Source: Clostridia bacterium (GTDB lineage: Bacteria > Bacillota > Clostridia > Peptostreptococcales > Anaerovoracaceae). Taken from it: a DNA stretch of 32,965 nucleotides. Under the pieces are notes generated by a model. That model had not been told where the DNA came from. It did not search any database and was given only the letters and a program-made list of their open reading frames with translations. The position numbers and the translations under genes are program-made. This document shows positions 15,679 to 32,965 of this stretch, one piece after another (the first letter of the stretch is position 1; each line of letters begins with the position of its first letter). The stretch lies in contig JAILDT010000064.1 in assembly GCA_024689085.1 (NCBI GenBank), positions 1 to 32,965 of the forward strand, in the 5' to 3' direction.

Positions 15679-16614
15679 ATGAAAGACAGACGCATCCTAG
15701 TGATCGCCGGCCCAACGGCCGTCGGGAAAACAGAATACGCCATCGCAGCCGCCAAGGCATTCAATGGGGAAATCGTCTCCTGTGATTCCATGCAGCTCTA
15801 TCAGTACATGGACATCGGCAGCGCGAAGCCTACAGAAGCCGAACAGCAAGAAGCCGTGCATCATCTGATCGACTTTCTCGATCCGAGAGAACCGTTTTCG
15901 GTCGCGCGCTATCAGGAGCTGGCACGGTCGGCGATCGATGACATTCTGGCGAGGGGAAGACTTCCTATAATTACTGGAGGTACCGGATTGTACCTCAATT
16001 CTATCCTTTATGATATGGATTTTGCCGGTGCGGGCGAAGACTCCGATCTTCGTGATAAATTGAGGAACACGGCAGATTCAGAGGGACCTGAGGCGCTTCA
16101 CGAACAGCTGCGGAAGCTGGATCCTGAAGCTGCGGAGCGCATCCATCCCAACAACGTGAAAAAAGTGATTCGCGCGATCGAACGTCTGAAGGCAGGAGAG
16201 GGGGAAGTCCGTCCATTCGACGGCGGAATTCGTGTGAACGAAAGCTACAACCCTTTGCTGGTTTGCCTTACAAGGGACCGGGAGGAGCTTTATGAGAGAA
16301 TCAAGAGACGGGTGGATGCCCTGATCGAGGCAGGACTTGTCGACGAAGTACGATCTCTGATGGACATGGGACTGACCGCAGATGACATCTCTATGAAGGG
16401 AATCGGGTATAAGGAAATCATCGACTATCTCAACGGCGAAACGACCCTTGACGACGCTGTTGAAATAATTAAAAAAAATACAAGACATTATGCAAAAAGA
16501 CAGTTAACATGGTTCCGCAGATATGATACTATCTATATGTTGAATTTATCGGAATACTTGTGTGAGGAAGACGCGAAAAGGGGTTTGATCGATTGGCTGG
16601 AGAAAAGACTATAA
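15679..16614 (+). CDS. miaA: tRNA dimethylallyltransferase
   Basis: A 311-residue MiaA. The P-loop GPTAVGKT is at 11-18, followed by VSCDSMQLY with the catalytic D36, and GGTGLY at 100-105. The C-terminal half has MKGIGYKEI and a final NTRHYAKRQLTWFRR block. It transfers dimethylallyl from DMAPP to A37 of tRNAs reading U-initial codons, so it uses the product of the isoprenoid pathway encoded upstream. No clear ribosome binding site is visible in the 12-base gap after mutL. The next gene overlaps its end by 22 bases. The hfq gene, common at this position, is absent. Confidence 0.96.
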   Translation: MKDRRILVIAGPTAVGKTEYAIAAAKAFNGEIVSCDSMQLYQYMDIGSAKPTEAEQQEAVHHLIDFLDPREPFSVARYQELARSAIDDILARGRLPIITGGTGLYLNSILYDMDFAGAGEDSDLRDKLRNTADSEGPEALHEQLRKLDPEAAERIHPNNVKKVIRAIERLKAGEGEVRPFDGGIRVNESYNPLLVCLTRDREELYERIKRRVDALIEAGLVDEVRSLMDMGLTADDISMKGIGYKEIIDYLNGETTLDDAVEIIKKNTRHYAKRQLTWFRRYDTIYMLNLSEYLCEEDAKRGLIDWLEKRL

Positions 16615-17726
16615 AACTGCACAACAGAAGCGAGCGGCCGGATAACATCGTGCTTAGAGAACACGAGGTCACGTCTAAGTGCACGGACATCGAAAAAGAG
16701 CTCCCAACCTTTATGCGGGGCTTTTTTGCTTATCTCAAGGGCAATGTGCTGCCGATGACGAGACTGGCTTATCTGACGGATATCCGGTTCTTCTGTCAGT
16801 ATTTGATCGAGGAGACCGGGCTGACCACCGCGAAAACGCCGCGGGACATCACGAACAAAGAATTCAATGAGATCATGGCTGTCGATGTCAACATGTTCAT
16901 CGATTACTGCAGAAGCTACCGCATCGAGAAAGACAACGAAGTCATATTGTATGAGAATACCAACAAGACGCTGGCCAGGAAGAAATCATCGATTTCAGTG
17001 CTCTTCAAGCAGCTCTACAGAGACGGCCTCGTCGATAAGAACATTACGGACGGCTTCGACCCGATCCGCGTACCAAAGGCCAGCGAGCGGGAAATCAAGG
17101 CCCTGCAGGACGATGAGGTCATGGTCATGCTCGACGCGGTTTCAACCGGCGCCAATCTCACGGAAAAGGAGCATCAGTTCTGGGAGAAGACAAAGAAGCG
17201 TGACAAAGCCATTCTGCTTCTCTTCATCACTTATGGGCTCCGGCTCTTCGAGCTGCAGCAGCTCAACGTCTCTTCCTTTAATTTCAACAGAGGAGAGTTC
17301 AAAATCTACAGAAAGAGGGACAAAGAGGCCATCATGCCTTTGAATCAATCGGTCACAGAGGTCATCATCGATTATATTGAAAACGAGAGGGCTTCCGACG
17401 AGAGGATTCAGCAGGGGCACGAGGACGCCCTGTTCCTTTCCCTGCAGGGAAGACGCATGACGGAACGGGCCATCCGGGATCTGGTCAAAAAATACACATC
17501 CATCGGCTTGGCGACATCCAGAAAGGCCGGATACAGTCCGCACAAGCTCCGGGCTACCGCGGCAACCAGCCTGATCGGGCGGGGAAATTCGATCTTTGAT
17601 GTGCAGGCACTCCTGGATCACGAGCAGGTCACGACGACGCAGCTCTATGCGAATCACAGGATGAATGTTAAAAGGGATTTGGTAAAAGACATGGAATGGG
17701 AGCTAGAACGGAAAGAGAGAGATTAG
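16593..17726 (+). CDS. Tyrosine recombinase/integrase (XerC/D-like)
   Basis: A 377-residue tyrosine recombinase with an intact catalytic set: R217 (YGLRLFEL), a Lys in the beta-hairpin (K241 or K244), H317 and R320 (HKLR), H343 (LLDHEQ) and the nucleophile Y352 (TTTQLYANH). The N-terminal part (about 35-155) is a SAM-like core-binding domain. The start is TTG at 16593, with AAAGGGG about nine bases upstream, overlapping miaA by 22 bases. It lacks nearby phage genes, an excisionase or visible att sites, and it is embedded in a housekeeping operon. That argues for a resident XerC/D-type enzyme rather than a prophage integrase. Its DNA target is not visible in the window. Confidence 0.88.
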   Translation: MAGEKTIKLHNRSERPDNIVLREHEVTSKCTDIEKELPTFMRGFFAYLKGNVLPMTRLAYLTDIRFFCQYLIEETGLTTAKTPRDITNKEFNEIMAVDVNMFIDYCRSYRIEKDNEVILYENTNKTLARKKSSISVLFKQLYRDGLVDKNITDGFDPIRVPKASEREIKALQDDEVMVMLDAVSTGANLTEKEHQFWEKTKKRDKAILLLFITYGLRLFELQQLNVSSFNFNRGEFKIYRKRDKEAIMPLNQSVTEVIIDYIENERASDERIQQGHEDALFLSLQGRRMTERAIRDLVKKYTSIGLATSRKAGYSPHKLRATAATSLIGRGNSIFDVQALLDHEQVTTTQLYANHRMNVKRDLVKDMEWELERKERD

Positions 17727-17727
17727 G

Positions 17728-19287
17728 ATGAAATTCATTAGAATACTGGCGCTGACTGCGTTTTCAGTGATATTTTTCACAGGAAGCATGCTTCCTGTTT
17801 TTGCCGGCGGCATGGATGATGACGATGGCAATTACATGTACGATGATGACGGTAATTACATCGAATATGAAGAATATGATCCGAATGAGGATGTCGAAGA
17901 AGATGTCATCACATCCTCGTTCAGTACGTCCTGGTTCGACAATCACCGCCGCTCTAAAGAATATACGATTACAACGGCAATTCAGCTGCAGGGTCTAGCG
18001 GACCTGGTAAACGAAAGTCGTTATGATGACTACACAAACAGTGCCAACCATTATGAGAGTTTTGAAGGCAAAATCATAAAACTTGGGCGCGACATTACCG
18101 TCAGAGACAACTTCACCCCAATCGGATGGAGTGAGGATGTCTGTTTTAAAGGTGCTTTTGACGGAAACGGGCATACGATAAAAGGGCTTGATTTCAACGA
18201 AAACGGCGGCGATGCAGGTCTGTTCGGGTATCTTGACGGAACTGTCAGGAATCTGAAACTGCAGGGCACTGTTAAGTCCAGCGGTGGCGAATGCGGTGCT
18301 TTTGCCGGTTATCTGGGAAAAGACGGCGTTGTGCAGAACTGCAAATCCTATGTGACCGTGACCGGCAAGGCGATGACAGGCGGCATCGTGGGCCGCAATG
18401 ACGGAGGCACGATTACAGAATGTGTCAACCACGGTGACGTCACAGGAACCTTTAAGGTCGGCGGTATCGTTGGCGAGAACCGGGGCAAGGTCGCCAAATG
18501 CGGCAACCGCGGAGAAGTTGAATCCTCAGAGAGAGGCGCTACGACTTATGGAACGGGCGGTGTCTGCGGTCGGTCTGTCAGTGAACATTCTGTCATTGAA
18601 CGGTGTTTCAATACAGGTCTTGTTTCGTCCGGTACAGAAGGAACCGGCGGTATCTGCGGATATATGAACGCCAGAGGTTCGAAGATCATAAGCTGCTACA
18701 ACACAGGGCATCTGAAGGTCAGGAACAATGCTGTGATCCCGACAGACAACATCAGGGGATACGCCGGCGGCATTATTGGCATTGCAGGTATGAAAGGCCT
18801 CGTAATAAGCGACTGCTACAACACGGGGGACATTGATAATTCCGATATCTCCGGTGGAATCATCGGTGCTTATCTGGATGAATCAGAATCCACGGATGAC
18901 CCGTACATCAGGAACAACTACTATCTGAGTGCTTCCGGTGTCAAAGGCGTCGGCAGTGATTTCTCCGGAACCGCCAAGAACATCCGGGAAGGCACCCAGC
19001 GGATCGCGCAGGCGACGCTCATCAGCAGTGCTTCGAAACTGGGAAACGCATATATAGAAGATTCCCAGAACAACTACGGAGCGGACGGATATCCAGTCCT
19101 CAGATGGCAGAAAAAGCAGGGAAAAGTAAAGCGTTCGCGTCTCACATGTGTTTCCGCTGATATGCAGAAGAACTACGACCGCTTCCTCGCTAAAAATCCG
19201 GTTTCAGAACGTCCTGAGTGGCCGGTGATCATATTTTTTAACCACAGCGCATTTACAAGTCAGGCAATAGGAAATTTTCATGAATAA
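17728..19287 (+). CDS. Secreted GLUG-repeat protein
   Basis: A 519-residue exported protein. A clear signal peptide (Lys/Arg start, hydrophobic core, VFAGG cleavage region near 26-28) is followed by an acidic repeat tract with two near-identical units containing YDDDGNY-like sequence, then a domain with FKGAFDGNGHTIKGLDF and at least six GLUG-type repeats (patterns such as GGIVGRNDGG, GGIVGENRG, GGICGYMNARG, GGIIGIAGMKG, and NTG turns), about 150-400. Such repeats build beta-solenoids in surface and adhesin-like proteins. The segment after GYPVLRWQ (about 452 on) is a basic tail of unknown role. No LPXTG motif or membrane anchor is visible. It starts one base after the recombinase stop and overlaps the following PLP enzyme by eight bases, an odd pairing for a surface protein. 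Confidence 0.8.
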   Translation: MKFIRILALTAFSVIFFTGSMLPVFAGGMDDDDGNYMYDDDGNYIEYEEYDPNEDVEEDVITSSFSTSWFDNHRRSKEYTITTAIQLQGLADLVNESRYDDYTNSANHYESFEGKIIKLGRDITVRDNFTPIGWSEDVCFKGAFDGNGHTIKGLDFNENGGDAGLFGYLDGTVRNLKLQGTVKSSGGECGAFAGYLGKDGVVQNCKSYVTVTGKAMTGGIVGRNDGGTITECVNHGDVTGTFKVGGIVGENRGKVAKCGNRGEVESSERGATTYGTGGVCGRSVSEHSVIERCFNTGLVSSGTEGTGGICGYMNARGSKIISCYNTGHLKVRNNAVIPTDNIRGYAGGIIGIAGMKGLVISDCYNTGDIDNSDISGGIIGAYLDESESTDDPYIRNNYYLSASGVKGVGSDFSGTAKNIREGTQRIAQATLISSASKLGNAYIEDSQNNYGADGYPVLRWQKKQGKVKRSRLTCVSADMQKNYDRFLAKNPVSERPEWPVIIFFNHSAFTSQAIGNFHE

Positions 19288-22886: not shown

Positions 22887-23354
22887 TCAGTCTCCTTTTA
22901 TGGATAGCTTTACCAGAACTACGCCGGCAACCAGGAATACAATACCAAGAATTTTGATCCAGTTAATCGGTTCCTGCGTCAGTCCGAGCCATCCATAGTG
23001 TGCGGTTATGGTCGCCACAATCATCTGGACGGTCACCGTTAATGATGCTGTCAGCAATGGTCCGATTTTCGTCACACAGTAAACCGTAAACGCCAGAATC
23101 AGCACTCCGCAGATACCGGCCAGAATATAGTATTTCGGAATCTGCAATGCCCCGCCGCCCCGTAATGTCGCAAATCTATCATTGAGGAAGCAAATACACA
23201 ATACAATAGAAATCGATACAGATAAACTGCACAGAGCAGCATACCATACGCTTCCTGTAAACCGCAGAACGGTTGAATTAAAAATCGGCTGTATTGCCAG
23301 ACATGTACCTATGATGACCGTCAGAAAAATCGGTATCACATACTTCATTACCAT
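22887..23354 (-). CDS. DMT-superfamily transporter, YdcZ/DUF606 type
   Basis: A 155-residue hydrophobic protein with about five membrane helices (approximately 5-24, 35-57, 75-95, 98-118 and 132-151). The size and the openings PIFLTVIIGTCLAIQPIFNS and LTASLTVTVQMIVATI fit the DUF606/YdcZ branch of the drug/metabolite transporter superfamily, short proteins thought to act as dimers. The substrate is unknown. The ATG at 23354 is preceded by GGAAGG and overlaps the larC stop by seven bases, so larC and this gene are coupled. Its neighbourhood might suggest a nickel or cofactor link, but that is speculation. Confidence 0.75.
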   Translation of the reverse strand: MVMKYVIPIFLTVIIGTCLAIQPIFNSTVLRFTGSVWYAALCSLSVSISIVLCICFLNDRFATLRGGGALQIPKYYILAGICGVLILAFTVYCVTKIGPLLTASLTVTVQMIVATITAHYGWLGLTQEPINWIKILGIVFLVAGVVLVKLSIKGD

Positions 23355-24121
23355 GATTCGTTACCTTCCACTAGTTTGATTGTCATCGGCGGAAGCCCGG
23401 TATTCCGCTTTCCGCATCCTCTTCCAATGTTCCCTTCTGCTTCATTCCAGGCATCATCAAAAGCATCGTCTTCCGCAAATCTGTCCACGATACCAGCCAG
23501 AATCGCTGCGCCTGTAGGCGTCAGGAGTTCCTGTTCTATATCAGAGCGATAATGCGGAAGCTCCGTATTCTTCAGAATCGCAGCTGTGGCAGGAGCCGGA
23601 ACAGGCAAAGTTCCCCACGCGCATTCCACTGTTCCATACCCTGTCGGGACATGCCGGGAAACAATAGTATCGGCCTTGATGTATTCCAGACAAATTGCTG
23701 TTCCGACAATATCAACAATAGAATCCACAGCGCCCACTTCATGGAACTGTACTTTGTCGACGGGCACACCATGAGCTTCGGACTCTGCTTCAGCCTTGAT
23801 ATCAAAGATTTTTCGGCTGAGCTCTTTCGCATGCTCAGAAATATCGGAGCGGTGAATCATTTCTTTGATTTCACCATAATTGCGGTATTTCCCGCTGTAT
23901 GGATGGATCCATGCATGTTCTTTATTGTAAAGGACCACATCGACATCTGTCGCAGGCAGTCCATTGTATTCAGTCTCATGTACTGACAGTTCGAACTCGT
24001 TCAGTCCAAGACTCGCCAGGCCCTTCCTGAGCGTTTCCAAAGGAACACCGAGAGACAGCATGGCTCCCAGTGTCATATCCCCGCTCGCTCCGGAACGGCA
24101 GTCAAATAATAATGTTTTCAT
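23348..24121 (-). CDS. larC1: LarC N-terminal half (LarC1-like), nickel-pincer cofactor family
   Basis: A 257-residue protein matching the N-terminal half of LarC, the nickel chelatase that completes the nickel-pincer nucleotide cofactor of lactate racemase and relatives. Signatures are FDCRSGASGDMTLGAML at the start, FHEVGAVDSIVDIVG, PVPAPATAAIL and LLTPTGAAIL. It ends just after GRGCGKRNTGLPPMTIKLVEG, where complete LarC proteins continue for about 140 residues (LarC2), and a transporter gene follows immediately. In Lactobacillus plantarum LarC1 and LarC2 are joined by programmed frameshifting; no LarC2-like sequence is present downstream here. No larA, larB or larE is visible either. The ATG at 24121 has no good ribosome binding site. 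Confidence 0.8.
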   Translation of the reverse strand: MKTLLFDCRSGASGDMTLGAMLSLGVPLETLRKGLASLGLNEFELSVHETEYNGLPATDVDVVLYNKEHAWIHPYSGKYRNYGEIKEMIHRSDISEHAKELSRKIFDIKAEAESEAHGVPVDKVQFHEVGAVDSIVDIVGTAICLEYIKADTIVSRHVPTGYGTVECAWGTLPVPAPATAAILKNTELPHYRSDIEQELLTPTGAAILAGIVDRFAEDDAFDDAWNEAEGNIGRGCGKRNTGLPPMTIKLVEGNESW

Positions 24122-24213: not shown

Positions 24214-25155
24214 TTATAGTCTGTCCAGTGCTTTTGCAACTTTGATGAGCCCTTCTGTCAGGTTCTTTCTCGAAGCCGCAATTTCTTCTTCCGTCCACTC
24301 CTGGAAGCCCTTGCCCGTCTTAAATCCCAGATCACCCTTTTCTACTTTTTCTACGAGCATTTTAGAAGGTTCTGTTGAGTTTTCAATGTGCGGGAAGAGA
24401 TACTTGTGAATCGACAGTGTCAGATCTGTGCCAGCGTTGTCGATGACTTCCATTGGTGCCATCACGCCCAGGCGCATACCGAATCCATACTTGATGGCAT
24501 CGTCGACGTCCTTCGGATCAGCAATATCATTCTCGACGATAGAAATCGCCTCTCTGAACAATGCGTGCTGCAGTCTGTTTGCCAGGAATCCGGGCACGTC
24601 CTTCTTGACCAGCACAGGCTTCTTGCCTGCTCCTTCCAGAAGCTCGAACATCGCCTTTTCTGTTTCTTCAGAAACGTATTTTGTTCTGATCACCTCTACG
24701 AGCGGAATCAGATAAGCCGGATTCCAGTAATGGGTTCCAATAATTCTATCCTTATGCACTGATTTTTCAGCAATCTCAGTAATGCTGATCGCCGATGTAT
24801 TTGAAGCGAGGATTGTCGACGGCGGACAAAGTTCATCCAGCGTCTTGAAGTAATCCTGCTTGACGGCAAGATTCTCTACAATGCATTCGAAGATCACGTC
24901 AGCGAATTCCGCCGCTTCTTTCAGGTCTTCTGTAAAGCTGACGTTATTGATGGTTTCTTCAACCTGTGACTGATTGATCACACCCTGATCCACCAGCACC
25001 TGCAGATTGCCGCGCATGGTCTCAAGCGGTTTTGCTCTTACTTTATCATCGTAGACATAAATCAGCATAACTTTGTGGCCCTTTGAGGCAAAAAGCTGAG
25101 CAATCCCGGTTCCCATCATCCCTGCGCCTAAAACAGCAACATTTTTCTTTGCCAT
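24214..25155 (-). CDS. 3-hydroxyacyl-CoA dehydrogenase-family NAD-dependent enzyme
   Basis: A 313-residue two-domain dehydrogenase. The Rossmann motif GAGMMGTGIAQ starts at G10, and the catalytic pair is H142 (GTHYWNPAYLIPLVEV) and E154. The C-terminal dimerisation domain begins with DVPGFLANRLQHALFREA. Classical 3-hydroxybutyryl-CoA dehydrogenases have HFFNPA..MKLVE at the catalytic site; the HYWNP..LIPLVEV version and the following domain look more like the branch with carnitine and gulonate dehydrogenases. A free 3-hydroxy acid is therefore as likely a substrate as a CoA ester. A CGGAGAA site precedes the ATG. It has its own sigma-54-like promoter, divergent from the activator gene, and lies across that gene from the BKACE operon. 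Confidence 0.8.
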   Translation of the reverse strand: MAKKNVAVLGAGMMGTGIAQLFASKGHKVMLIYVYDDKVRAKPLETMRGNLQVLVDQGVINQSQVEETINNVSFTEDLKEAAEFADVIFECIVENLAVKQDYFKTLDELCPPSTILASNTSAISITEIAEKSVHKDRIIGTHYWNPAYLIPLVEVIRTKYVSEETEKAMFELLEGAGKKPVLVKKDVPGFLANRLQHALFREAISIVENDIADPKDVDDAIKYGFGMRLGVMAPMEVIDNAGTDLTLSIHKYLFPHIENSTEPSKMLVEKVEKGDLGFKTGKGFQEWTEEEIAASRKNLTEGLIKVAKALDRL

Positions 25156-25225: not shown

Positions 25226-25241
25226 AGCATATGTCATGCCA
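25226..25241 (-). promoter_or_regulatory. Candidate sigma-54 (-24/-12) promoter for the dehydrogenase
   Basis: On the minus strand TGGCAT-N5-ATGC keeps the invariant GG and GC at the exact spacing of TGGCAC-N5-TTGC, with one mismatch in the -12 box. Transcription would begin near 25215, about 60 bases before the ATG. The divergent neighbour encodes a sigma-54 activator, which makes this credible. A TATAAT on the same strand just downstream lacks a good -35 box. Confidence 0.6.
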
Positions 25242-25312: not shown

Positions 25313-25341
25313 GCAACATTTTGTTGCTATTCTGCAACAAA
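25313..25341. promoter_or_regulatory. Nested inverted repeats, probable activator binding site
   Basis: Three half-sites alternate: GCAACA (25313-25318), TGTTGC (25322-25327) and GCAACA (25334-25339). They form GCAACA-N3-TGTTGC and TTTGTTGC-N6-GCAACAAA. The block lies 72-100 bases upstream of the sigma-54 -24 element, a usual distance for an upstream activator site, and overlaps the -35 box of the activator's own promoter. Confidence 0.6.
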
Positions 25342-25396: not shown

Positions 25397-26962
25397 ATGG
25401 ATCAGGTACTCGCCATCAAACAGATTCAGGATAAGATCAATAAAGCGCTGGAACAGGAAAAAGCCAATCCTGCAGGAGACTCCAGCGCCCTTCTTCAGGA
25501 AATCGCATCCGACCTGGATGTGTTTCTTGCCAAAGGCATCGACTTCAAAATCATTGTGGACAGTCTCGACGACAGTGTCCTGATAACGGATCATGAAGGT
25601 CTTGTATTATATGTCAATCCTGCCTATGCGAGCAACACTGGCATTTCCTACGATGAAGTTGTGGGCAGAACGATTCAGGACATCCAATCGGAAGGCACTC
25701 TGTTTAAGGGAGGCTCCGCCATGGATGTGCTGAAACACAAGAAGCGCGCCTTCCGTCTTGCCACCACCTTTAAAGGTGATAAACCGCAGGTCGGGTTTAC
25801 TGTCGGCGTTCCCATCTTCGATGAAAACGGCGAGCTGCATCAGGTCGTCGTAAGCAGCAGACCGATCCACACCTTACGGGGACTGAAAAAGGATTTTCAG
25901 AGCTTTCTGGATGAAGCAAATGCAATCAAAGAAAACAAGGATAATATCAAGCTCTATGAGTCTGCGGACGACCCGATTCTTTCCGATAGCCTGATTGGTT
26001 CCTCCGCTTCCCTGCAAAATGTATGGGATATGATTCAGAAAGTCGCGCCGACTGACGCCAGCGTCATGATCAGTGGAGAATCCGGTGTTGGTAAGGAAAT
26101 CGTTGCCGACGAAATCTATAAGATGGGACCGAGAAAAGACAAGCCCTTCGTCAAGGTGAATTGTGCTTCGATTCCGGTAAATCTTCTGGAATCTGAGTTA
26201 TTCGGCTATGAGAAAGGCGCATTCACAGGAGCCAGCGCTTCCGGCAAAAAAGGTCTCTTTGAGATGGCCAACCACGGCACCCTGCTCCTCGACGAAATCG
26301 GAGATATGCCACTGGACCTTCAGGTCAAGCTTCTGAGAGCGATTCAAAACAAAGAAATCACCCGTGTTGGCGGTACGAAGCCAATACCATTGGATATCAG
26401 ATTTATTTCCTCCACCAACTCGGATCTCAAGAAGAAAATCGCGGAAGGAACCTTCCGCCGTGATCTCTTCTATCGCCTCAGCGTCATTCCGATCCACATC
26501 CCACCGCTCAGAGAACGTACAGACGACATTGAAGAACTCTGTAATCATTTCATCGACATATACGGAGAACATCACGGACGCAGGATCCATCTGCTCCCTG
26601 AGCAGTTGAATCTGATGAAAAAATACAACTGGCCGGGCAATATCAGAGAACTTGAGAACGTCATCGAATATCTGACGATTTGTACTTCCGGAACCAGTAA
26701 TGTCAACACATTGATGCTGCAGAATCTGTTGAACATCGATGATAACATGGATATGGGCATGGAGATGGGAATAGAAATGAATATGGAATACAATGAAGTT
26801 CCTCTGGCAGAATCTATGGAACAATATGAGAAAGCGCGTATCGAGAACGCTCTTGCAAACGCTCACAATCTGCGTGAAGCGGGTAAGATACTCGGCGTCA
26901 ACGCCTCCACGGTATCGCGCAAAATCAAACAATATGGGATTGATTATTCCAAAAGCAAATAA
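25397..26962 (+). CDS. Sigma-54-dependent transcriptional activator (PAS-AAA+-Fis)
   Basis: A 521-residue enhancer-binding protein. The PAS sensor is at about 48-160 (DSLDDSVLITDHEGLVLYVN). The AAA+ domain has Walker A GESGVGKE at 227-234, the sigma-54 contact loop GAFTGA at 274-279 and Walker B LLLDE at 296-300. A Fis/TyrR-like helix-turn-helix is at about 488-514 (REAGKILGVNASTVSRKIKQYGI). Between AAA+ and the DNA-binding domain lies a methionine-rich acidic linker (about 448-466). With an intact GAFTGA it should drive sigma-54 promoters, most directly the divergent dehydrogenase and perhaps the BKACE operon. I chose ATG 25397 because AGGAGG lies five bases upstream. No response-regulator receiver is present, so the signal is likely a small molecule bound by the PAS domain. 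Confidence 0.93.
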   Translation: MDQVLAIKQIQDKINKALEQEKANPAGDSSALLQEIASDLDVFLAKGIDFKIIVDSLDDSVLITDHEGLVLYVNPAYASNTGISYDEVVGRTIQDIQSEGTLFKGGSAMDVLKHKKRAFRLATTFKGDKPQVGFTVGVPIFDENGELHQVVVSSRPIHTLRGLKKDFQSFLDEANAIKENKDNIKLYESADDPILSDSLIGSSASLQNVWDMIQKVAPTDASVMISGESGVGKEIVADEIYKMGPRKDKPFVKVNCASIPVNLLESELFGYEKGAFTGASASGKKGLFEMANHGTLLLDEIGDMPLDLQVKLLRAIQNKEITRVGGTKPIPLDIRFISSTNSDLKKKIAEGTFRRDLFYRLSVIPIHIPPLRERTDDIEELCNHFIDIYGEHHGRRIHLLPEQLNLMKKYNWPGNIRELENVIEYLTICTSGTSNVNTLMLQNLLNIDDNMDMGMEMGIEMNMEYNEVPLAESMEQYEKARIENALANAHNLREAGKILGVNASTVSRKIKQYGIDYSKSK

Positions 26963-27043: not shown

Positions 27044-27961
27044 TTAATATACGCCGTATGGATATTCCTTATCCGGTACGCTTCTGTCGATTCTGTCGGA
27101 AGGAACAAATGCAACAGCTCTTACGATTGTTCCATCGCCCATGTACCAGCGAAGCGGGAATGCGCAGAACAGGAATCTCTGATTCTTGACCTTATCCAGG
27201 TCGCCGCCCAGGTTTTCAATGCCCATGACATTATGCGCAAGCAGGATATCGTGGCAAGGTTCCCACTCAGGAAAATCTTCTTCAACCGGATGTCCGGCCA
27301 TCTCTTCGTATTCTTCCACAATACGAGGAACGTAAGGTCCCGGACCGTGTTTGCCGCCGTAGGTGTAAAGGAAGTGGTCTATGGCCTGCATATCAAAACC
27401 AACACCCTTCACCTTATGCTCCACGAACCACCAGGCTCCTTCAATGGAGAGTCCAGGGGAGAAGCCGAAGTAGTCTTCGTTCTCGCCCCAGCGTCTGTGG
27501 GTGCCGGTATTCAGCAGTACCCAGTCGCCTTCTTTGATGCCGCCAGGCACTTTCTTTGCTGCTTCTTCGATTTCCTCGACCGTGATCATTTCCCATTTAC
27601 CCTTCGGGATATCCAGGCATACTGCCTCACCAAAGTAGTTCTCGATCGGCAGTTCATGCGTGAATGGACTCTCTGGGATAACATGTGACGGAGAGTCTGC
27701 ATGCGTTGAGTTATGCATATGGAAAGAATTGAATGTCTGCAGCAGTCTGTAGTGCATTGGCATATGCTGTACTCTGTCAATGTGGAAGTCTCCGTTGGAC
27801 GGCCAAAGCGGATTACCTCTTCCAAATGGATTGGAAAGGTCCAGCAGTTCAAACTTTCCACCTTTGAAGATATCAAAGATACTGGCGTCATAAGGCTTCT
27901 TCCAGTCGTAAGTATGAGCGTAGTTTTCTTCACGTGTATGTCTCTCATAAATTTCTGACAT
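27044..27961 (-). CDS. Cyclase-family (kynurenine formamidase-like) metal hydrolase
   Basis: A 305-residue member of the 'putative cyclase' family (PF04199). The metal-binding signature HxxTHxDxPxH is intact at H83, H87, D89 and H93 (HNSTHADSPSH). Members hydrolyse amide or ring bonds, for example in N-formylkynurenine, isatin or cyclic diketones. This protein is longer than kynurenine formamidase (about 210 residues), with an N-terminal extension of about 40 residues and a C-terminal region containing CHDILLAHNVMGIENLGGDL. It is the last gene of the minus-strand catabolic operon, before the strong terminator. The ATG at 27961 follows AAAGGAG by nine bases; a TTG 18 bases upstream is not needed. 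A ring- or amide-opening step feeding the beta-keto acid enzymes is plausible but unproven. Confidence 0.82.
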   Translation of the reverse strand: MSEIYERHTREENYAHTYDWKKPYDASIFDIFKGGKFELLDLSNPFGRGNPLWPSNGDFHIDRVQHMPMHYRLLQTFNSFHMHNSTHADSPSHVIPESPFTHELPIENYFGEAVCLDIPKGKWEMITVEEIEEAAKKVPGGIKEGDWVLLNTGTHRRWGENEDYFGFSPGLSIEGAWWFVEHKVKGVGFDMQAIDHFLYTYGGKHGPGPYVPRIVEEYEEMAGHPVEEDFPEWEPCHDILLAHNVMGIENLGGDLDKVKNQRFLFCAFPLRWYMGDGTIVRAVAFVPSDRIDRSVPDKEYPYGVY

Positions 27962-27990
27962 CGTTGTTTCTCCTTTCAAACTATTTCACT

Positions 27991-28512
27991 TCAGGCGCGA
28001 ATGATTCTGCCAGGTTTGCGTTCCGGCGCTTCCGGCAGGTCACCGTCTCTGTATCCCAGGATGCAGTTACCGATTCCTACATAGCTGTCACCGACGCCCC
28101 ATTTAGCCTTGAGGGCTTTTCCCTCTTCCGTATCAAAGACTTCCATGGCTCTGTGAACCCAGCAGGAATCTACACCCATTGAGAATGCGGCAAGCATCAT
28201 ATTGCCAATGATCAGACTACCATCCTCTACTGGTGTAGCCGTCTCTTCCGGATCTGCAAATACGATTACTACAGTCGGAGCACCGTAAAAAGGATCGATG
28301 TCCATGCCCATGACTTTGGCATTGAGACCGCTCATCATTGCTATGATTTCCGGATCCTGAACAGCTACGATCTTGGATGCCTGAAAGCCCATGCCGCTTG
28401 CAGCGTATTCGCCTGCCTCCAGTATGGCATTCAGTTCTTCATCCTTGACCTGCTCATTTTTGTAAGATCTGATGCTGCGTCTTTCTTTGATTGTTTTAAT
28501 CACATCGTTCAT
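27991..28512 (-). CDS. Nitroreductase-family FMN oxidoreductase
   Basis: A 173-residue small nitroreductase-fold protein. The N-terminal FMN phosphate-binding motif is KERRSIRSYKNEQV (R11-R15), followed by ILEAGEYAASGMGFQ and a C-terminal PERKPGRI segment. Such enzymes are dimeric, FMN-dependent, and reduce nitro groups, quinones, enones or flavins. In this operon it may reduce a double bond or supply electrons for the catabolic route; the substrate is not readable. The ATG at 28512 follows AAAGGTG by six bases; a GTG nine bases upstream is a weaker alternative. It lies between the BKACE and cyclase genes with gaps of 27 and 29 bases, consistent with one transcript. Confidence 0.87.
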   Translation of the reverse strand: MNDVIKTIKERRSIRSYKNEQVKDEELNAILEAGEYAASGMGFQASKIVAVQDPEIIAMMSGLNAKVMGMDIDPFYGAPTVVIVFADPEETATPVEDGSLIIGNMMLAAFSMGVDSCWVHRAMEVFDTEEGKALKAKWGVGDSYVGIGNCILGYRDGDLPEAPERKPGRIIRA

Positions 28513-28539
28513 AATAATCACCTTTCGCCCAAGCTGTCC

Positions 28540-29385
28540 TTATACTCCCAGAATCTCTCTGGCTTCATCCGGTGTAGCAGGTTCTTTGCCCATCTCTTTC
28601 GCGATGCGTACTACTCTGGCGATAAACTGTTCATTGGACTCTGCCAGAACACCCTTATTATAGTATACATTGTCTTCCAGACCGACACGAACATTTCCGC
28701 CCATTGCGATACCGGAAAGCAAAATCTCATTGGCTCCTCTGCCGATGCCGAATGTACTCCAGGTGCACTCTTCCGGAAGATGATTCACGAGGTAAACCAG
28801 GTTCTCCGTGGTGGCTTCCATGCCGCCAGGTGCGCCGAGACACAGCTGGAAGTGAGCCGGTCCCTTGATGATGCCCTTCTTTAGATAGTATTTAGCTGTG
28901 TTCAGCATGCCCATATCGAAGACTTCAATCTCAGGCTTGACATTCACTTCCTGCATGACCTCTCCGCACTTCTCAAGGAAACCCGGTTCATTCATGAATA
29001 CAACGGTGTGCAGCCAGTTCATGGTACCCGCGTCGAAGGATGCCATCTCAGGCTTCAGTTCCTTAAATGGCTTGATACGTTCATCCCAGCTGAATCCCTG
29101 TCCACCTGATGAGGTCAGATTGATGATAGCCGGGAAATTATCCTTGCGCAGCTTCGTGACGATCTCTTCGAAACGATCGTACCGCATGCTGGCGGTATCG
29201 TCCTCATTTCTGACATGGATATGTACACAGGCAGCGCCTGCCTCATAACACTTCCATGCGGATTCCACGATTTCATCCGGCTGCGTCGGCAGAGCCGGGT
29301 TGTCTTTCTTTGTGGTGACAGCGCCGGTCAGTGCCGCTGAAATAATAATTTTATCTTTGTGATTTAATCTTCTGCTATCGGACAT
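28540..29385 (-). CDS. Beta-keto acid cleavage enzyme (BKACE / Kce, DUF849)
   Basis: A 281-residue TIM-barrel enzyme of the DUF849/BKACE family. Zinc ligands are visible as H55 and H57 (CVHIHVRNED) and E237 in GLEDNVYYNKG. The family cleaves a beta-keto acid with acetyl-CoA to give acetoacetate and a new acyl-CoA; the founding member Kce acts on 3-keto-5-aminohexanoate in lysine fermentation, and others act on dehydrocarnitine and various keto acids. The lysine-fermentation partners (aminomutases, Kdd, Kal) are absent here, so a different substrate is likely. Other blocks present are INLTSSGGQGFSWDER and SFDAGTMNW. It lies between the thiolase and nitroreductase genes, with an AAAGGA site before the ATG. 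Confidence 0.92.
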   Translation of the reverse strand: MSDSRRLNHKDKIIISAALTGAVTTKKDNPALPTQPDEIVESAWKCYEAGAACVHIHVRNEDDTASMRYDRFEEIVTKLRKDNFPAIINLTSSGGQGFSWDERIKPFKELKPEMASFDAGTMNWLHTVVFMNEPGFLEKCGEVMQEVNVKPEIEVFDMGMLNTAKYYLKKGIIKGPAHFQLCLGAPGGMEATTENLVYLVNHLPEECTWSTFGIGRGANEILLSGIAMGGNVRVGLEDNVYYNKGVLAESNEQFIARVVRIAKEMGKEPATPDEAREILGV

Positions 29386-29419
29386 TGTTGTGTTCCTTTC
29401 TGAAAGCTTTTGCTCCCGC

Positions 29420-30598
29420 CTAAACCATTTCGACCAATACTGCTACGCCCATTCCGCCGCCGGCACACAGGGTCGCAATACCATACTTCTGCTTTCTCTT
29501 CGCAAGCTCGTGGACCAGTGTAACAACCAGTCTGGCGCCGGTAGCACCTACCGGATGGCCGATGGAGATGCCTCCACCGTTTACGTTCAGCTTGTCGATA
29601 TCGATGCCGAGATCTCTCTGGCAGGCAAGACATTGTGCAGCAAAGGCTTCATTCATCTCCCAAAGGTCGATGTCTTCCACTGTCAGGCCGGCTTTTTCCA
29701 GAACTTTTCTTGAGGCGCCGATAGGACCAAGACCCATGTAGTCAGGGTCCAGGCCGACAGCGCCGACTGAAAGGACGCGCGCAATAATCGGAACACCTAG
29801 TTCCTTCGCTTTGTCTTCATCCATGAGAAGTACACCTGAAGCAGCGTCGTTCATTCCGGAAGAATTTCCTGCTGTTACCTTGCCGTCTTCTTTGAATGTC
29901 GCCTTCAGCTTGGCTAGTTTCTCAAGCGAAGTGTCTCTTCTTGGGAATTCGTCAGTATCACAGACGATGTCGCCTTTCTTGTTCTTGATAGTAATCGGAA
30001 CAATTTCATCCTTAAATTTTCCCGCGTCGATTGCAGCAACGGCACGCTGATGGCTCTGAAGAGCATATGCATCCATTTCTTCTCTTGTGATACCATAGCG
30101 CTCTGCTACGTTTTCAGCAGTGATTCCCATTGCAGGCCCGACACCAAGATTGGTGAAGGAATCCCACATGGAGTCACGCATTTCCATATGTCCGTATTTC
30201 TTGCCATAGCGGGCATCGAAGACCATGTGCGGCGCGGTGCTCATGCTGTCTGCGCCGCCGGCCATGATGCAGTCAGCCTCACCAGATTTGATCTGGTAAT
30301 AGCCAAACTGAATCGAAGATAATGAAGACGTGCAGTTCCGATGAATTGTAATACCGGGAACGCTCTCCGGCAGGCCTGCCTTGAAGGCAGCCACGCGGGC
30401 CAGATTGTTTTCCAAGTATGTTCTCTGGTAGTTGCAGCCCCAGATCACGTCTTCGATGATCTCAGGGTCGATGCCGGATCTCTTAATCAGTTCCTGCATG
30501 ATTGGGATAGACAGGTCCAATGATGTGATGGTTTTGTACATGCCGCCCAGAGAGCCGACAGCCGTTCTGCATGCTGCTACGATTACTACATTACCCAT
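29420..30598 (-). CDS. Thiolase (acetyl-CoA C-acyltransferase)
   Basis: A 392-residue type II thiolase with an intact active site: nucleophile C89 (HRNCTSSLSS), NEAFAAQ, H348 (GGGISIGHPVGATG) and C378 (LCAGGGMG). It reversibly splits beta-ketoacyl-CoA with CoA. The sequence around C89 (NCTSSLSS) differs from the common NxxCaSGlqA, which may reflect a different acyl substrate. In this operon it could cleave acetoacetyl-CoA made from the BKACE product. No CoA transferase to activate acetoacetate is visible in the window. It lies 27 bases after the transporter gene, with an AGGAAGG site. Confidence 0.92.
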   Translation of the reverse strand: MGNVVIVAACRTAVGSLGGMYKTITSLDLSIPIMQELIKRSGIDPEIIEDVIWGCNYQRTYLENNLARVAAFKAGLPESVPGITIHRNCTSSLSSIQFGYYQIKSGEADCIMAGGADSMSTAPHMVFDARYGKKYGHMEMRDSMWDSFTNLGVGPAMGITAENVAERYGITREEMDAYALQSHQRAVAAIDAGKFKDEIVPITIKNKKGDIVCDTDEFPRRDTSLEKLAKLKATFKEDGKVTAGNSSGMNDAASGVLLMDEDKAKELGVPIIARVLSVGAVGLDPDYMGLGPIGASRKVLEKAGLTVEDIDLWEMNEAFAAQCLACQRDLGIDIDKLNVNGGGISIGHPVGATGARLVVTLVHELAKRKQKYGIATLCAGGGMGVAVLVEMV

Positions 30599-30625
30599 AA
30601 TGTATATCCTTCCTGTGTAATTAGA

Positions 30626-31969
30626 TTAACCTTCGTGATGTTCACCTGTAATCTCATCTTCCTTCGCATAGTCAAGATTGTACTTTCTGGTATTCAGGAC
30701 AGAGATGAGTATGAAGTTTACGATCAGCAGTCCGATGAATACAACATATGCGCCTCTGAGTGAGCCTGTAACTCTCAGTGCAGTAGCATTGACGATGTAA
30801 TTCAGCATCAGAACAACCTGCATGATTGGGAAGTAAATGGAATATACAACGTCAAAACTGTGACGTCCGAATACGGATGCAGGCAGCGAGGTCATGAAGT
30901 TTGCTGCAGCGCCGATGGCTACGCCGATCATAGCTACGCAGATGTAACCGCCTGTCATATTGTTGAACAGTACGTTAACAGCAAGTGCTACCATGTACCA
31001 GAGCAGGAATGCTCTAACCGCTGTCTTAACGCCCAGTTTCTGGTCAATCATACCAAACGCAAAGGATCCACCGAGACCGATCAGTGCGCAGACGGTCATC
31101 AGAGCAATCGCCTTTTCCGGAGCGAAACCGAGTTCGATATTTCTAGGAACGAGCTGTGACATAACACCGGTTGTAACCATTTGATTGATACCGATGATCA
31201 GAGCAACAATCCACATTTCCTTAGTCTTCAGAAGATCTTTTACAGTCCATCTTGCTTCGCCGTCTTCTGACAGGTTAGCATACTCTGCATCATATACATC
31301 CTGTGTAACATTATCAGGCAGCTGTCCCATTTCCTGCGGCGTATTTTTGATGACGAAGATTGCGATAAACGCAATGACAATGGCTGCAATACCGGTGATT
31401 GTCATGCCCTTGCCCATGCCGTAAGCACCGATCAGGAAAGCGATAAGCGGTACGTACAGAGCAGAACCAAGGTTGTGACCCATGGTCGTAAATCCGTTTG
31501 CGAGGCCCTTCTTCTTAGGCATCCACTGGGTAATCAGATTTCCGCCGCCAAGATATCCTGCAGCATTGATGAAGATTGTTACGAGTGTCAGCCCTACGAA
31601 GTAAGTTCCCAGTGTTGTTGCGTGTCCGTAGAAAATGTAGGATGCGCCGGCCAGTGCCAGACATACGACTGACAGCCACTTTGCGCCGATCTTCGTCAGT
31701 ACACGTCCAATGATGAAGTAGGAAATTACGCCGATGAATCCAGCCCACATGGCCAGCTCAAGCAGCTGTGCGTGCAGCATTGTCGGATCTGAATATCCCA
31801 ACTTATCTGCATACGCCTCAACGAATCTGTCGATGACGATGTTCTGTCCGTCGATTGAGAAACCGATCAGGAACCAGAACATGATCATGCTGTAAAAGAT
31901 GATGATCCAGCCTTTGCCAAAGTTCATTTTGGCGTTTTCCGACTGGAGCTGTGGTCCATTATTTGCCAT
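30626..31969 (-). CDS. MFS transporter, OFA (oxalate/formate antiporter)-like
   Basis: A 447-residue membrane protein with about 12 helices in two halves and a large cytoplasmic loop around 210-245 (NVTQDVYDAEYANLSEDGEARW). The first half has GRVLTKIGAKW, a form of the MFS loop 2-3 motif, and GYLGGGNLITQWMPKKKGLANGFTTMGHNLGSAL, typical of the OFA branch that carries small carboxylates. It probably imports the substrate of the operon, or exchanges it for a product. The ATG is preceded by TAGGAG. The C-terminus is acidic and His-containing (DEITGEHHEG). Substrate assignment is not possible from sequence alone. Confidence 0.87.
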   Translation of the reverse strand: MANNGPQLQSENAKMNFGKGWIIIFYSMIMFWFLIGFSIDGQNIVIDRFVEAYADKLGYSDPTMLHAQLLELAMWAGFIGVISYFIIGRVLTKIGAKWLSVVCLALAGASYIFYGHATTLGTYFVGLTLVTIFINAAGYLGGGNLITQWMPKKKGLANGFTTMGHNLGSALYVPLIAFLIGAYGMGKGMTITGIAAIVIAFIAIFVIKNTPQEMGQLPDNVTQDVYDAEYANLSEDGEARWTVKDLLKTKEMWIVALIIGINQMVTTGVMSQLVPRNIELGFAPEKAIALMTVCALIGLGGSFAFGMIDQKLGVKTAVRAFLLWYMVALAVNVLFNNMTGGYICVAMIGVAIGAAANFMTSLPASVFGRHSFDVVYSIYFPIMQVVLMLNYIVNATALRVTGSLRGAYVVFIGLLIVNFILISVLNTRKYNLDYAKEDEITGEHHEG

Positions 31970-31984
31970 TATTTTTTCTCCTAT

Positions 31985-32012
31985 ACTTTTATTGACAATG
32001 ATAACTTTTATT
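31985..32012. repeat. Nine-base direct repeat upstream of the MFS gene
   Basis: ACTTTTATT occurs at 31985-31993 and 32004-32012 with a 19-base period (AATAAAAGT on the coding strand), between the unknown small gene and the MFS transporter. It may be a regulatory or RNA-processing element, or chance in AT-rich sequence. Confidence 0.35.
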
Positions 32013-32268
32013 CAAAGGCTTCGTCCGTCGCCGCCCTGACCATGTCGTCCCAGCTCTCATATTCCGTACTCTCTTTGACAAAGTTGTCGAATATCGTCTT
32101 GGAATATACGAGTCTCGGAGAATCCCATGATGCCATGACTGCGCTGGAATAGCGGAAACCTTCAAAATTCTTGAAATTGGTATGCTTCTGCATAAACTCA
32201 TCGCTGAATATTCTGTTCAGAAGATCTTTCAGCTCCTGAGTGTAGTTAATGGAAACATAATCGGTCAT
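32008..32268 (-). CDS. Small protein of unknown function (86 residues)
   Basis: I do not recognise this family. It is soluble-looking, with no cysteines, signal peptide or membrane segment, and is rich in aromatic residues (several Phe, Tyr and Trp). The pattern suggests alpha-helices at about 8-28 and 57-84, with a possible strand around FRYSSAVMASWDS. Its ATG overlaps the stop of the upstream DUF362 gene (TAATG), and the MFS gene follows after 38 bases, so it is translated within the operon. The tight coupling to the DUF362 gene suggests a subunit or partner of that protein. Confidence 0.7.
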   Translation of the reverse strand: MTDYVSINYTQELKDLLNRIFSDEFMQKHTNFKNFEGFRYSSAVMASWDSPRLVYSKTIFDNFVKESTEYESWDDMVRAATDEAFE

Positions 32269-32965
32269 TATTTGCTCTCCGGATGTTCTTTGAAGTACTC
32301 TTCAGCTTTTGCAAATACGTAATCATGCCATACCTGAGCATCTCTCGCCATGCATGGTCTGATGATTTCGTCTTCCTGATCGCCCATTCCGTTGATGGTC
32401 TCTTTTCTCTGAACTGTCAGGTAAAGAGCCGGTTCGTTTGGAGGGCATCCCAGGATCCAGAATGCATTTGGATGATCCTTCAGATACTTCTTGGTGCAGT
32501 TGCCGTGGAGAACGATTCTTTCGTCCGGAATGTCCTTAGGGACTTCGTTCTTAGGGCCAACTACGATGGTCATGCCTGCGTTCTTGTCATACTCGTCAAC
32601 AGCTTTCAGCTCTTCCATGTTGATAGCAAGCAGAGCCTGGCAGCTTGAGCATGCGCCGTCGCATCTTACGTCATATTCCGGCCATCTTGTGCTCATGTCG
32701 CCGATGTAAGGAATCCACATCTTCTTGAAGCAGTCTTCTACGGAATCACCGATTACTTCGATGTCTTCCAGATCATACTTACCAAGACCTACTTCCTTAG
32801 CAACCTTGAAGTAGTCAACCTGGGAAGTATCGATTCCGGTAACTTCGCAAGCGATTCTGTCGATAGCTACAGGGTCCTTGGAACCCAGAACCATGTTGGA
32901 TTCGATTGGAACAGGCATGTGTGGGCTGTAACCGCTGGCTGCTCTCATAGCGTCCATGATGTTCA
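32268..32965 (-). CDS. DUF362-family protein, partial at the window edge
   Basis: The C-terminal 232 residues or so of a protein whose frame runs off the right edge. The visible part begins in a DUF362 domain (MPVPIESNMVLGSKDPVAIDRIACEVTGID). It then has a cysteine-bearing segment (CDGACSSC), a GNCTKKYL stretch and WILGCPPNEPALYL, suggesting a metal or iron-sulfur site. DUF362 proteins are often fused to ferredoxin domains and their activity is not established; none of the visible part is a classical ferredoxin. It is the first visible gene of the catabolic operon. The true start and promoter lie beyond the window. Confidence 0.78.
   Translation of the reverse strand, partial: NIMDAMRAASGYSPHMPVPIESNMVLGSKDPVAIDRIACEVTGIDTSQVDYFKVAKEVGLGKYDLEDIEVIGDSVEDCFKKMWIPYIGDMSTRWPEYDVRCDGACSSCQALLAINMEELKAVDEYDKNAGMTIVVGPKNEVPKDIPDERIVLHGNCTKKYLKDHPNAFWILGCPPNEPALYLTVQRKETINGMGDQEDEIIRPCMARDAQVWHDYVFAKAEEYFKEHPESK

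Follow-up and report, generated by a model that had tools for sequence, protein, structure and literature searches.

A putative sigma-54-controlled catabolic regulon in gut Clostridia related to the anaerobic phloroglucinol pathway

Which compound is degraded by an operon that pairs a BKACE enzyme with a DUF362 protein? The question is raised by contig JAILDT010000064.1 of a Clostridia bacterium (assembly GCA_024689085.1), where seven co-directional minus-strand open reading frames (ORFs) occupy positions 27044–32963. The stretch analyzed here, hereafter the window, is 32,965 nucleotides long and comprises one entire contig (G000:C130) of a 1.94-Mb, 160-contig draft genome. We propose, at a probability of about 0.58, that the operon belongs to a sigma-54-controlled catabolic regulon that is akin to the phloroglucinol pathway but has a different imported cyclic polyhydroxy or oxo compound as its substrate. 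By homology, the lower half of the route is predicted to work like that of phloroglucinol degradation, while the three features that define the latter pathway (the reductase, the BKACE specificity position and the cyclase specificity position) were absent or altered. Since the first enzyme of the known pathway is lacking and its place is taken by a protein with a predicted LarA fold, a different ring compound is probably degraded, by a new route.

Relation to the anaerobic phloroglucinol pathway

Anaerobic phloroglucinol degradation, published in 2023 with Rubrivivax gelatinosus as a known degrader, proceeds in Clostridium scatologenes through an SDR phloroglucinol reductase, a cyclase-family cyclohydrolase, a 3HCDH-family dehydrogenase and a BKACE (PGR, DPGC, TfD and TAL), which convert phloroglucinol to acetoacetate and acetoacetyl-CoA and are accompanied by a thiolase homologue, an MFS transporter and a regulator, as outlined in PMC10470551. 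In the window and most of its relatives, four enzymes are co-encoded as in that pathway, here all on the minus strand: a cyclase-family hydrolase, the probable ring opener (27044–27961, ATG at 27961, within an ORF running from a TTG at 27979; PF04199, E 3.9e-32), a 3HCDH-family 3-hydroxy acid dehydrogenase (24214–25155; PF02737/PF00725), a BKACE (28540–29385; PF05853, E 8.7e-105) and a thiolase, i.e., an acetyl-CoA C-acyltransferase (29420–30598; PF00108/PF02803; TIGR01930 at 475 bits, above cut-off). The first three have relatives in reductase-bearing loci, including that of R. gelatinosus: the dehydrogenase is 43–53% identical to those of most phloroglucinol-type loci, and the nearest cyclases, at up to 47–49% identity, come from phloroglucinol-type loci. 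We consider it very likely that the operon is related to the phloroglucinol pathway.

This homology bears on the initial annotation, which had pictured the import of a cyclic or amide compound, its opening by the cyclase-family hydrolase, modification by the nitroreductase-family enzyme, oxidation to a beta-keto acid and cleavage. Import, opening, oxidation and cleavage by BKACE are predicted by the phloroglucinol relationship, while a central nitroreductase step was not supported; the oxidizing enzyme that this scheme required is the dehydrogenase at 24214–25155, which had been overlooked. The annotation had also known of no described pathway with this gene set. Among the open-licence PMC articles found by searches, none, as judged by title and abstract, describes the exact set or a function for DUF362, but the core enzymes do match the 2023 pathway.

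Despite this kinship, the SDR phloroglucinol reductase was found in 0/23 window-type loci. In genome-wide searches with a clostridial reductase, 2 of the 21 cluster-carrying genomes (Emergencia timonensis and Flavonifractor plautii) held a 56–57% match, and the other 19 held none over 36%, the best SDR of the window's genome reaching 28%. F. plautii is a flavonoid degrader; in strain ATCC 29863, a dehydrogenase and a window-clade, Val-type BKACE lie at a contig end (L046, 11–1924), and the reductase gene is found elsewhere, with a cupin (L135).

The substrate-pocket positions differ as well. The specificity position of the C. scatologenes BKACE is Trp16 of CsTAL, and those of its cyclase are Trp20 and Tyr22 (PMC10470551). 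The former corresponds to Glu14 of Kce and is Val in the window, as matched through the Kce alignment rather than the C. scatologenes sequence. The cyclase positions, matched by motif, read WPS in 21/21 window-type rows, i.e., Trp is kept and Ser replaces Tyr, versus WPY in all 15 other rows with residues at this position. Both kinds of cluster coexist in E. timonensis, where a canonical phloroglucinol-type cluster (BKACE with Trp, dehydrogenase, permease, cupin, reductase, cyclase with WPY, and MFS) lies about 0.5 Mb from the window-type cluster on the same contig. Two such paralogous sets in one genome suggest that their substrates differ, and we regard a substrate other than phloroglucinol as probable for window-type operons.

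Named genomes were scanned with the BKACE, and the resulting 58 loci were searched with the window proteins. The initial annotation had suggested looking for the gene set in other genomes, and its core indeed recurred together across 23 window-type loci: cyclase and BKACE in 22 each, dehydrogenase, thiolase and LarC in 20 each, and MFS, DUF362 and the 86-residue protein in 19 each, the last two in the same 19. An iron-dependent alcohol dehydrogenase (Fe-ADH) was found in 13, a 4-hydroxybutyryl-CoA dehydratase in 12, and LarB and LarE in 3 each. These 23 include near-copies (L044, L045, L079, L121, L122) and loci cut by contig ends (L033, L036, L040, L079, L122), so that some absences reflect contig ends; L041, L046, L051 and L052 were excluded despite a window-clade BKACE, being cut at a contig end or lacking the cyclase, and L119 and L125, which repeat L049 and L048, were also excluded. 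Selection of the 20 phloroglucinol-type loci required cyclase, BKACE and reductase together, making the reductase count 20/20 by construction; their counts of 0/20 for LarC, DUF362 and the 86-residue protein were not built in by this selection, and the dehydratase was likewise found in 0/20. Because the gene set is kept in many other contigs, a chance grouping is argued against. The layout is compact in Emergencia sp. 1XD21-10 (L039), with Fe-ADH, DUF362, 86-residue protein, MFS, thiolase and a xanthine/uracil-type permease on one side and, beyond an activator on the opposite strand, LarC, BKACE, cyclase, dehydrogenase and 4-hydroxybutyryl-CoA dehydratase.

The nitroreductase-family protein (27991–28521, ATG at 28512, minus strand; PF00881, E 7.6e-21), which the initial annotation had given a modifying step, was found among the window-type loci searched only in the seven same-genus loci L031–L037 and in E. 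timonensis (33% identity); we rejected it as a core member and treat it as accessory, and a YdcZ exporter confined to same-genus loci was rejected likewise. The MFS importer (30626–31969, minus strand; PF07690, MFS_1) has relatives of 29–43% identity in phloroglucinol-type clusters. Its earlier label as a carboxylate-type importer is only suggestive, since the best NCBIfam model, an L-lactate transporter, reached 106 bits where 320 are required. PF00860 xanthine/uracil-type permeases occur in both kinds of cluster (L039, 6029–7450; L207, 6541–7860; L126, 8641–9942), a hint that the substrate of each is a planar ring compound. In a further same-genus locus (L124, G004:C8, 8157–9370), a DUF362 fragment of about 116 codons, 96% identical, lies beside LarC and YdcZ, the other cluster queries finding no match in the 18-kb stretch; the operon looks to have been lost there by deletion.

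DUF362, the LarA fold and nickel-pincer genes

Because the window is a whole contig and the DUF362 gene sits at its end, this gene is cut at its 5' side, leaving the C-terminal 231 residues (32268–32963, minus strand), which match only the C-terminal part of the PF04015 model (E 3.1e-5); full-length orthologues have about 428 residues. A sequence search for solved relatives of DUF362 returned none (best E 0.72). DUF362 and LarA are placed in one Pfam clan (PMC11770544), and hhalign, run on 32 DUF362 rows versus 8 LarA rows, aligned them with a probability of 87% and E 4.2e-6. His153 and Lys163 of DUF362 align with His177 and Lys187 of the LarA encoded in the window's genome (L136), all invariant in their respective alignments; by motif and spacing, they would be the equivalents of LarA His174 and of the cofactor-tethering lysine, whose roles are described in PMC12611868 and PMC7583248. 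Beyond the aligned block, His178 is found in at least 90% of DUF362 rows, 15 residues after Lys163 (16 for the LarA nickel ligand), and the C-terminal part holds four invariant cysteines (C302, C305, C353 and C370). An AlphaFold model of the full-length L032 orthologue (mean predicted local distance difference test score, pLDDT, 90.6) gave 19 Foldseek matches in the PDB at E ≤ 0.001, the best being 8ezf at 1.8e-8. All were LarA-type, i.e., lactate or malate racemases, LarA-like enzymes and 4nar, which we take to be LarA-type although its title names only a Thermotoga maritima protein. As modeled, the DUF362 protein has the LarA fold. Its gene overlaps by 1 base that of the 86-residue protein (32008–32268, minus strand), which matched no NCBIfam model and no Pfam family at E ≤ 0.001 and whose confidently predicted structure (pLDDT 93) had no PDB fold match by Foldseek at E ≤ 0.001.

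A LarC-like nickel-pincer biosynthesis protein of LarC1 length (257 residues; 23348–24121, minus strand; PF01969; TIGR00299 above cut-off) is encoded next to the dehydrogenase. LarB scored above cut-off in 21/21 cluster-carrying genomes (6/14 control genomes), and no LarA above cut-off was found in 12 of the 21 (LarA being present in 2/14 controls). In one genome without LarA (G184, 98% complete), LarC, LarB and LarE adjoin the only DUF362 match; among the loci, LarB, LarC and LarE lie beside DUF362 in two (L047 and L120). Use of the nickel-pincer cofactor by DUF362 is a supported hypothesis rather than a result, which we place slightly short of even odds. In several same-genus loci, two short LarC1-like genes stand in tandem (L031, 15307–16814), the second about 31% identical to the window's; LarE is close by in L031, and no LarC2-like part was seen beside the window's copy. 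The genome of L044 encodes a second, different DUF362 protein of 386 residues about 3 kb from LarB and LarC (G102:C12, 27154–32413), possibly a further link between DUF362 and the nucleotide outside window-type operons.

Regulation, extent and carbon fate

A sigma-54-dependent activator with a PAS domain is encoded on the plus strand (25397–26962, a start set by relatives within an ORF from 25367; PF00158), its best NCBIfam model being PrdR at 384 bits against a cut-off of 795. Ahead of it, two overlapping inverted repeats (25313–25339), GCAACA-N3-TGTTGC at 25313–25327 and TGTTGC-N6-GCAACA at 25322–25339, are likely activator sites, the same palindrome being found in relatives, and a sigma-54-type promoter with two mismatches, TGGCATGACATATGC (25227–25241, minus strand), precedes the dehydrogenase. 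In relatives, TGTTGC-N5..8-GCAACA, the only form counted here, sits 70–157 bases before many sigma-54 promoters (TGGCAY-N5-TTGC). Allowing at most one mismatch in 24 sources, window included, such promoters were found before DUF362 in 16, cyclase in 10, LarC and Fe-ADH in 9 each, dehydrogenase in 5 and BKACE in 4. Overall, the 23 window-type loci (405 kb) contained 26 palindromes and 59 promoters, compared with 2 and 3 in 60 control LarB loci (1.05 Mb) and 0 and 6 in the 20 phloroglucinol-type loci (336 kb); neither was found in L047. In G184, where the searched stretches total 1.13 Mb (about 1.12 Mb unique, roughly 70% of 1.6 Mb), the full palindrome was confined to the window-type cluster, and two perfect sigma-54 sites lay outside it, one of them at 648 of L258 (G184:C4) before a 131-codon gene that, by eye, resembles kal of lysine fermentation. 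With its own regulon-type promoter in nine loci, LarC is tied to the pathway beyond mere neighborhood.

The seven co-directional genes and their protein families, as first annotated, were borne out by ORF calls and Pfam. Gaps of under 40 bases held for most pairs (11–38 bases, depending on the start codons chosen) but not for the pair that overlaps. The boundaries at 27044 and 32965 were drawn too narrowly: the dehydrogenase, activator and LarC-like genes lie outside them and recur with the operon in relatives, making the operon, incomplete at the contig end, part of a larger regulon. Several of its closest named relatives, which are uncultured Clostridia, come from the gut of goat or roe deer. 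Farther away in the window, a phage-integrase-family gene (16593–17726) and a gene for a GLUG-motif protein (17728–19287) are flanked by miaA-like and methionine gamma-lyase-like genes.

The dehydratase-like gene of window-type loci matches 1u8v, a solved dehydratase of gamma-aminobutyrate (GABA) metabolism, at 928 bits. It directly follows the dehydrogenase in nine Emergencia-type loci, the cyclase in L049 (Hornefia) and L120, and the BKACE in L047, and its adjacency in three different orders suggests that a pathway product becomes 4-hydroxybutyryl-CoA; we hold this product to be nearly an even bet, though still a tentative one. The gene also occurs elsewhere in 15 of 17 same-genus genomes tested, including the window's, where it lies beside CoA-transferase-like and Fe-ADH genes; in Fusibacter it belongs to a GABA-type locus on the opposite strand, a few kilobases from the cluster. 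An aldehyde intermediate is suggested by Fe-ADH, which shares the promoter type, and 3-hydroxy-6-oxo- or 3,6-dihydroxyhexanoate would fit the dehydrogenase, BKACE, Fe-ADH and dehydratase together. Substrates considered on paper were 1,2,3,5-tetrahydroxybenzene, hydroxyhydroquinone, pyrogallol, inositol-type cyclitols, lactones and lactams; reduced pyrogallol or resorcinol, if opened, would yield no 3-hydroxy acid.

Proposed route, rival explanations and known systems

As predicted from homology, the cyclase-family enzyme would open the ring by hydrolysis, giving a 3-hydroxy acid that the 3HCDH-family enzyme would oxidize to a beta-keto acid; BKACE with acetyl-CoA would release acetoacetate and a new acyl-CoA, and a CoA-transferase and the thiolase would return acetyl-CoA. 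DUF362, the 86-residue protein and a LarC-dependent nickel-pincer nucleotide may carry out a hydride transfer, i.e., a ring reduction or isomerization, in place of the phloroglucinol reductase step of the known pathway; the acyl part may become 4-hydroxybutyryl-CoA, which the dehydratase would pass to crotonyl-CoA and on to butyrate. Substrate, cofactor use and reaction order are inferred. Rather doubtful, in our estimate, is the full version of this scheme, in which DUF362 and its 86-residue partner form a nickel-pincer-nucleotide class outside the LarA family that transfers hydride, in a dearomatizing reduction or an isomerization, during the anaerobic degradation of a polyhydroxylated ring, with a pathway leading to 4-hydroxybutyryl-CoA and butyrate.

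Several observations weigh against the proposed regulon or its cofactor. A LarA is present in 9 of the 21 cluster genomes, including the window's own, and the control genome of Bacteroides ihuae has DUF362 without LarB. Nor is DUF362 generally linked to LarB: among 60 LarB loci taken from the top of a score-ordered list (217 LarB-positive of 398 genomes), a non-random draw with some entries skipped, DUF362 lay within about 9 kb in 2 and LarA in none. As LarB without either neighbor is the rule and LarA is found in those nine genomes, the Lar genes may serve something else. LarC itself has the short, LarC1-like form in most window-type loci. On the protein side, the aligned Lys and His are also kept in (nearly) all DUF362 rows outside the pathway and are thus not specific evidence; DUF362 lacks an equivalent of LarA His108, i.e., has one catalytic histidine of two, and the single-histidine LarA homologues described in PMC12611868 miss the other histidine, not that one. 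The TM-scores to LarA, only 0.29–0.43, imply a different domain arrangement or detail. In the window's own genus, the cluster has no dehydratase. Moreover, a 1,3-dione opened by simple retro-Claisen cleavage would not yield the 6-oxygenated hexanoate required for 4-hydroxybutyryl-CoA, so that either the ring or the role of DUF362 is unusual, which is the main unexplained point. Finally, the BKACE of L016, an E. timonensis-like locus with a complete phloroglucinol-type cluster, is not firmly placed in the BKACE tree, as is the case for other Trp rows (L011, L013, L017).

Phloroglucinol itself could be degraded, with another ring reductase (DUF362 or a different enzyme) replacing the SDR, given that both cluster kinds share the core enzymes, homologous MFS transporters and the PF00860 permease family; we judge this quite improbable, since E. 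timonensis has the complete canonical cluster in addition, the pockets differ consistently (Val for Trp in BKACE, WPS for WPY in 21/21 versus 15/15 cyclases), and the dehydratase is found in 12/23 window-type versus 0/20 phloroglucinol-type loci. Somewhat less remote, but still unlikely, is a cyclase acting as a lactonase or amidase on the lactone or lactam of a 3-hydroxy acid, with roles for DUF362 and LarC that do not involve the nucleotide. Solved relatives of the cyclase family, i.e., isatin hydrolase and kynurenine formamidase, do hydrolyze amides, a 3,6-substituted hexanoate lactone or lactam would lead directly to 4-hydroxybutyryl-CoA where a 1,3-dione would not, and DUF362 occurs without LarB in a control genome. 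However, the cyclase has its nearest relatives in phloroglucinol-type loci and matches isatin hydrolase in the PDB only weakly (E 5.5e-6), and both the LarC promoters in nine loci and the LarB, LarC and LarE genes beside DUF362 in two speak for a nucleotide.

An ordinary amino-acid or carnitine route, with BKACE acting as Kce or as a dehydrocarnitine-cleaving enzyme, is scarcely credible. Kce is the best NCBIfam match of the BKACE, and carnitine 3-dehydrogenase models match the 3HCDH protein, but all score under their curated cut-offs (321.2 of 382 bits for Kce; 124 of 414 for NF005471 and 142 of 592 for NF005716). A tree of 84 BKACE rows places the window protein outside the separate Glu-type group (14 rows, support 100/98), in a clade of 28 rows with Val (26) or Ile (2) at the Glu14 position (support 100/99), which joins a 25-row clade of 23 Trp and 2 Val rows (support 98/92), the latter two from Bacillus (L055, L056). 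Not every Trp-type BKACE locus, some on short contigs, has both cyclase and reductase (L130, with a 27% cyclase and no reductase; L128, L131, L069, L071–L073, L077). The closest solved structure to the window BKACE by sequence is 2y7d. To our knowledge, neither lysine fermentation nor carnitine degradation uses a cyclase-family hydrolase, LarC or DUF362. We rejected both roles, the first on residue, clade and score and the second on the dehydrogenase models; the initial annotation had already thought a classical Kce role unlikely, and the match to lysine or carnitine degradation that it named as a refutation was not found.

Taken together, the proposed sigma-54-controlled regulon points to a second way, next to phloroglucinol degradation, in which gut Clostridia open a ring and ferment the product to butyrate. 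The regulon would also make DUF362 a testable candidate user of the nickel-pincer nucleotide in genomes with the biosynthesis genes but no LarA, on the basis of its LarA fold and of a LarC neighbor or shared promoter type, and would give this functionally unassigned family a genetic setting, a promoter signature and residues to mutate.

Four known systems frame this proposal. With the Kce of lysine fermentation, the window enzyme shares the BKACE family, but it has Val for Glu14, a separate clade and a score under the equivalog cut-off. With the LarA superfamily, DUF362 shares a Pfam clan, an alignable profile, the fold by Foldseek, and the aligned Lys and one His, while it forms a separate Pfam family with a four-cysteine C-terminal part and no His108 equivalent. 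Clostridium aminobutyricum-type 4-hydroxybutyrate/GABA fermentation has the same dehydratase by sequence as 12 window-type loci, and 13 have Fe-ADH; here, however, the dehydratase follows the dehydrogenase, cyclase or BKACE within one operon, the window's genome and Fusibacter keeping it in separate GABA-type loci. Finally, the C. scatologenes phloroglucinol pathway has a homologue of each of the cyclase-family hydrolase, 3HCDH-family dehydrogenase, BKACE, thiolase, MFS transporter and regulator, whereas window-type loci replace the SDR reductase with DUF362, the 86-residue protein, LarC and often 4-hydroxybutyryl-CoA dehydratase, and have changed pocket positions in both BKACE and cyclase.

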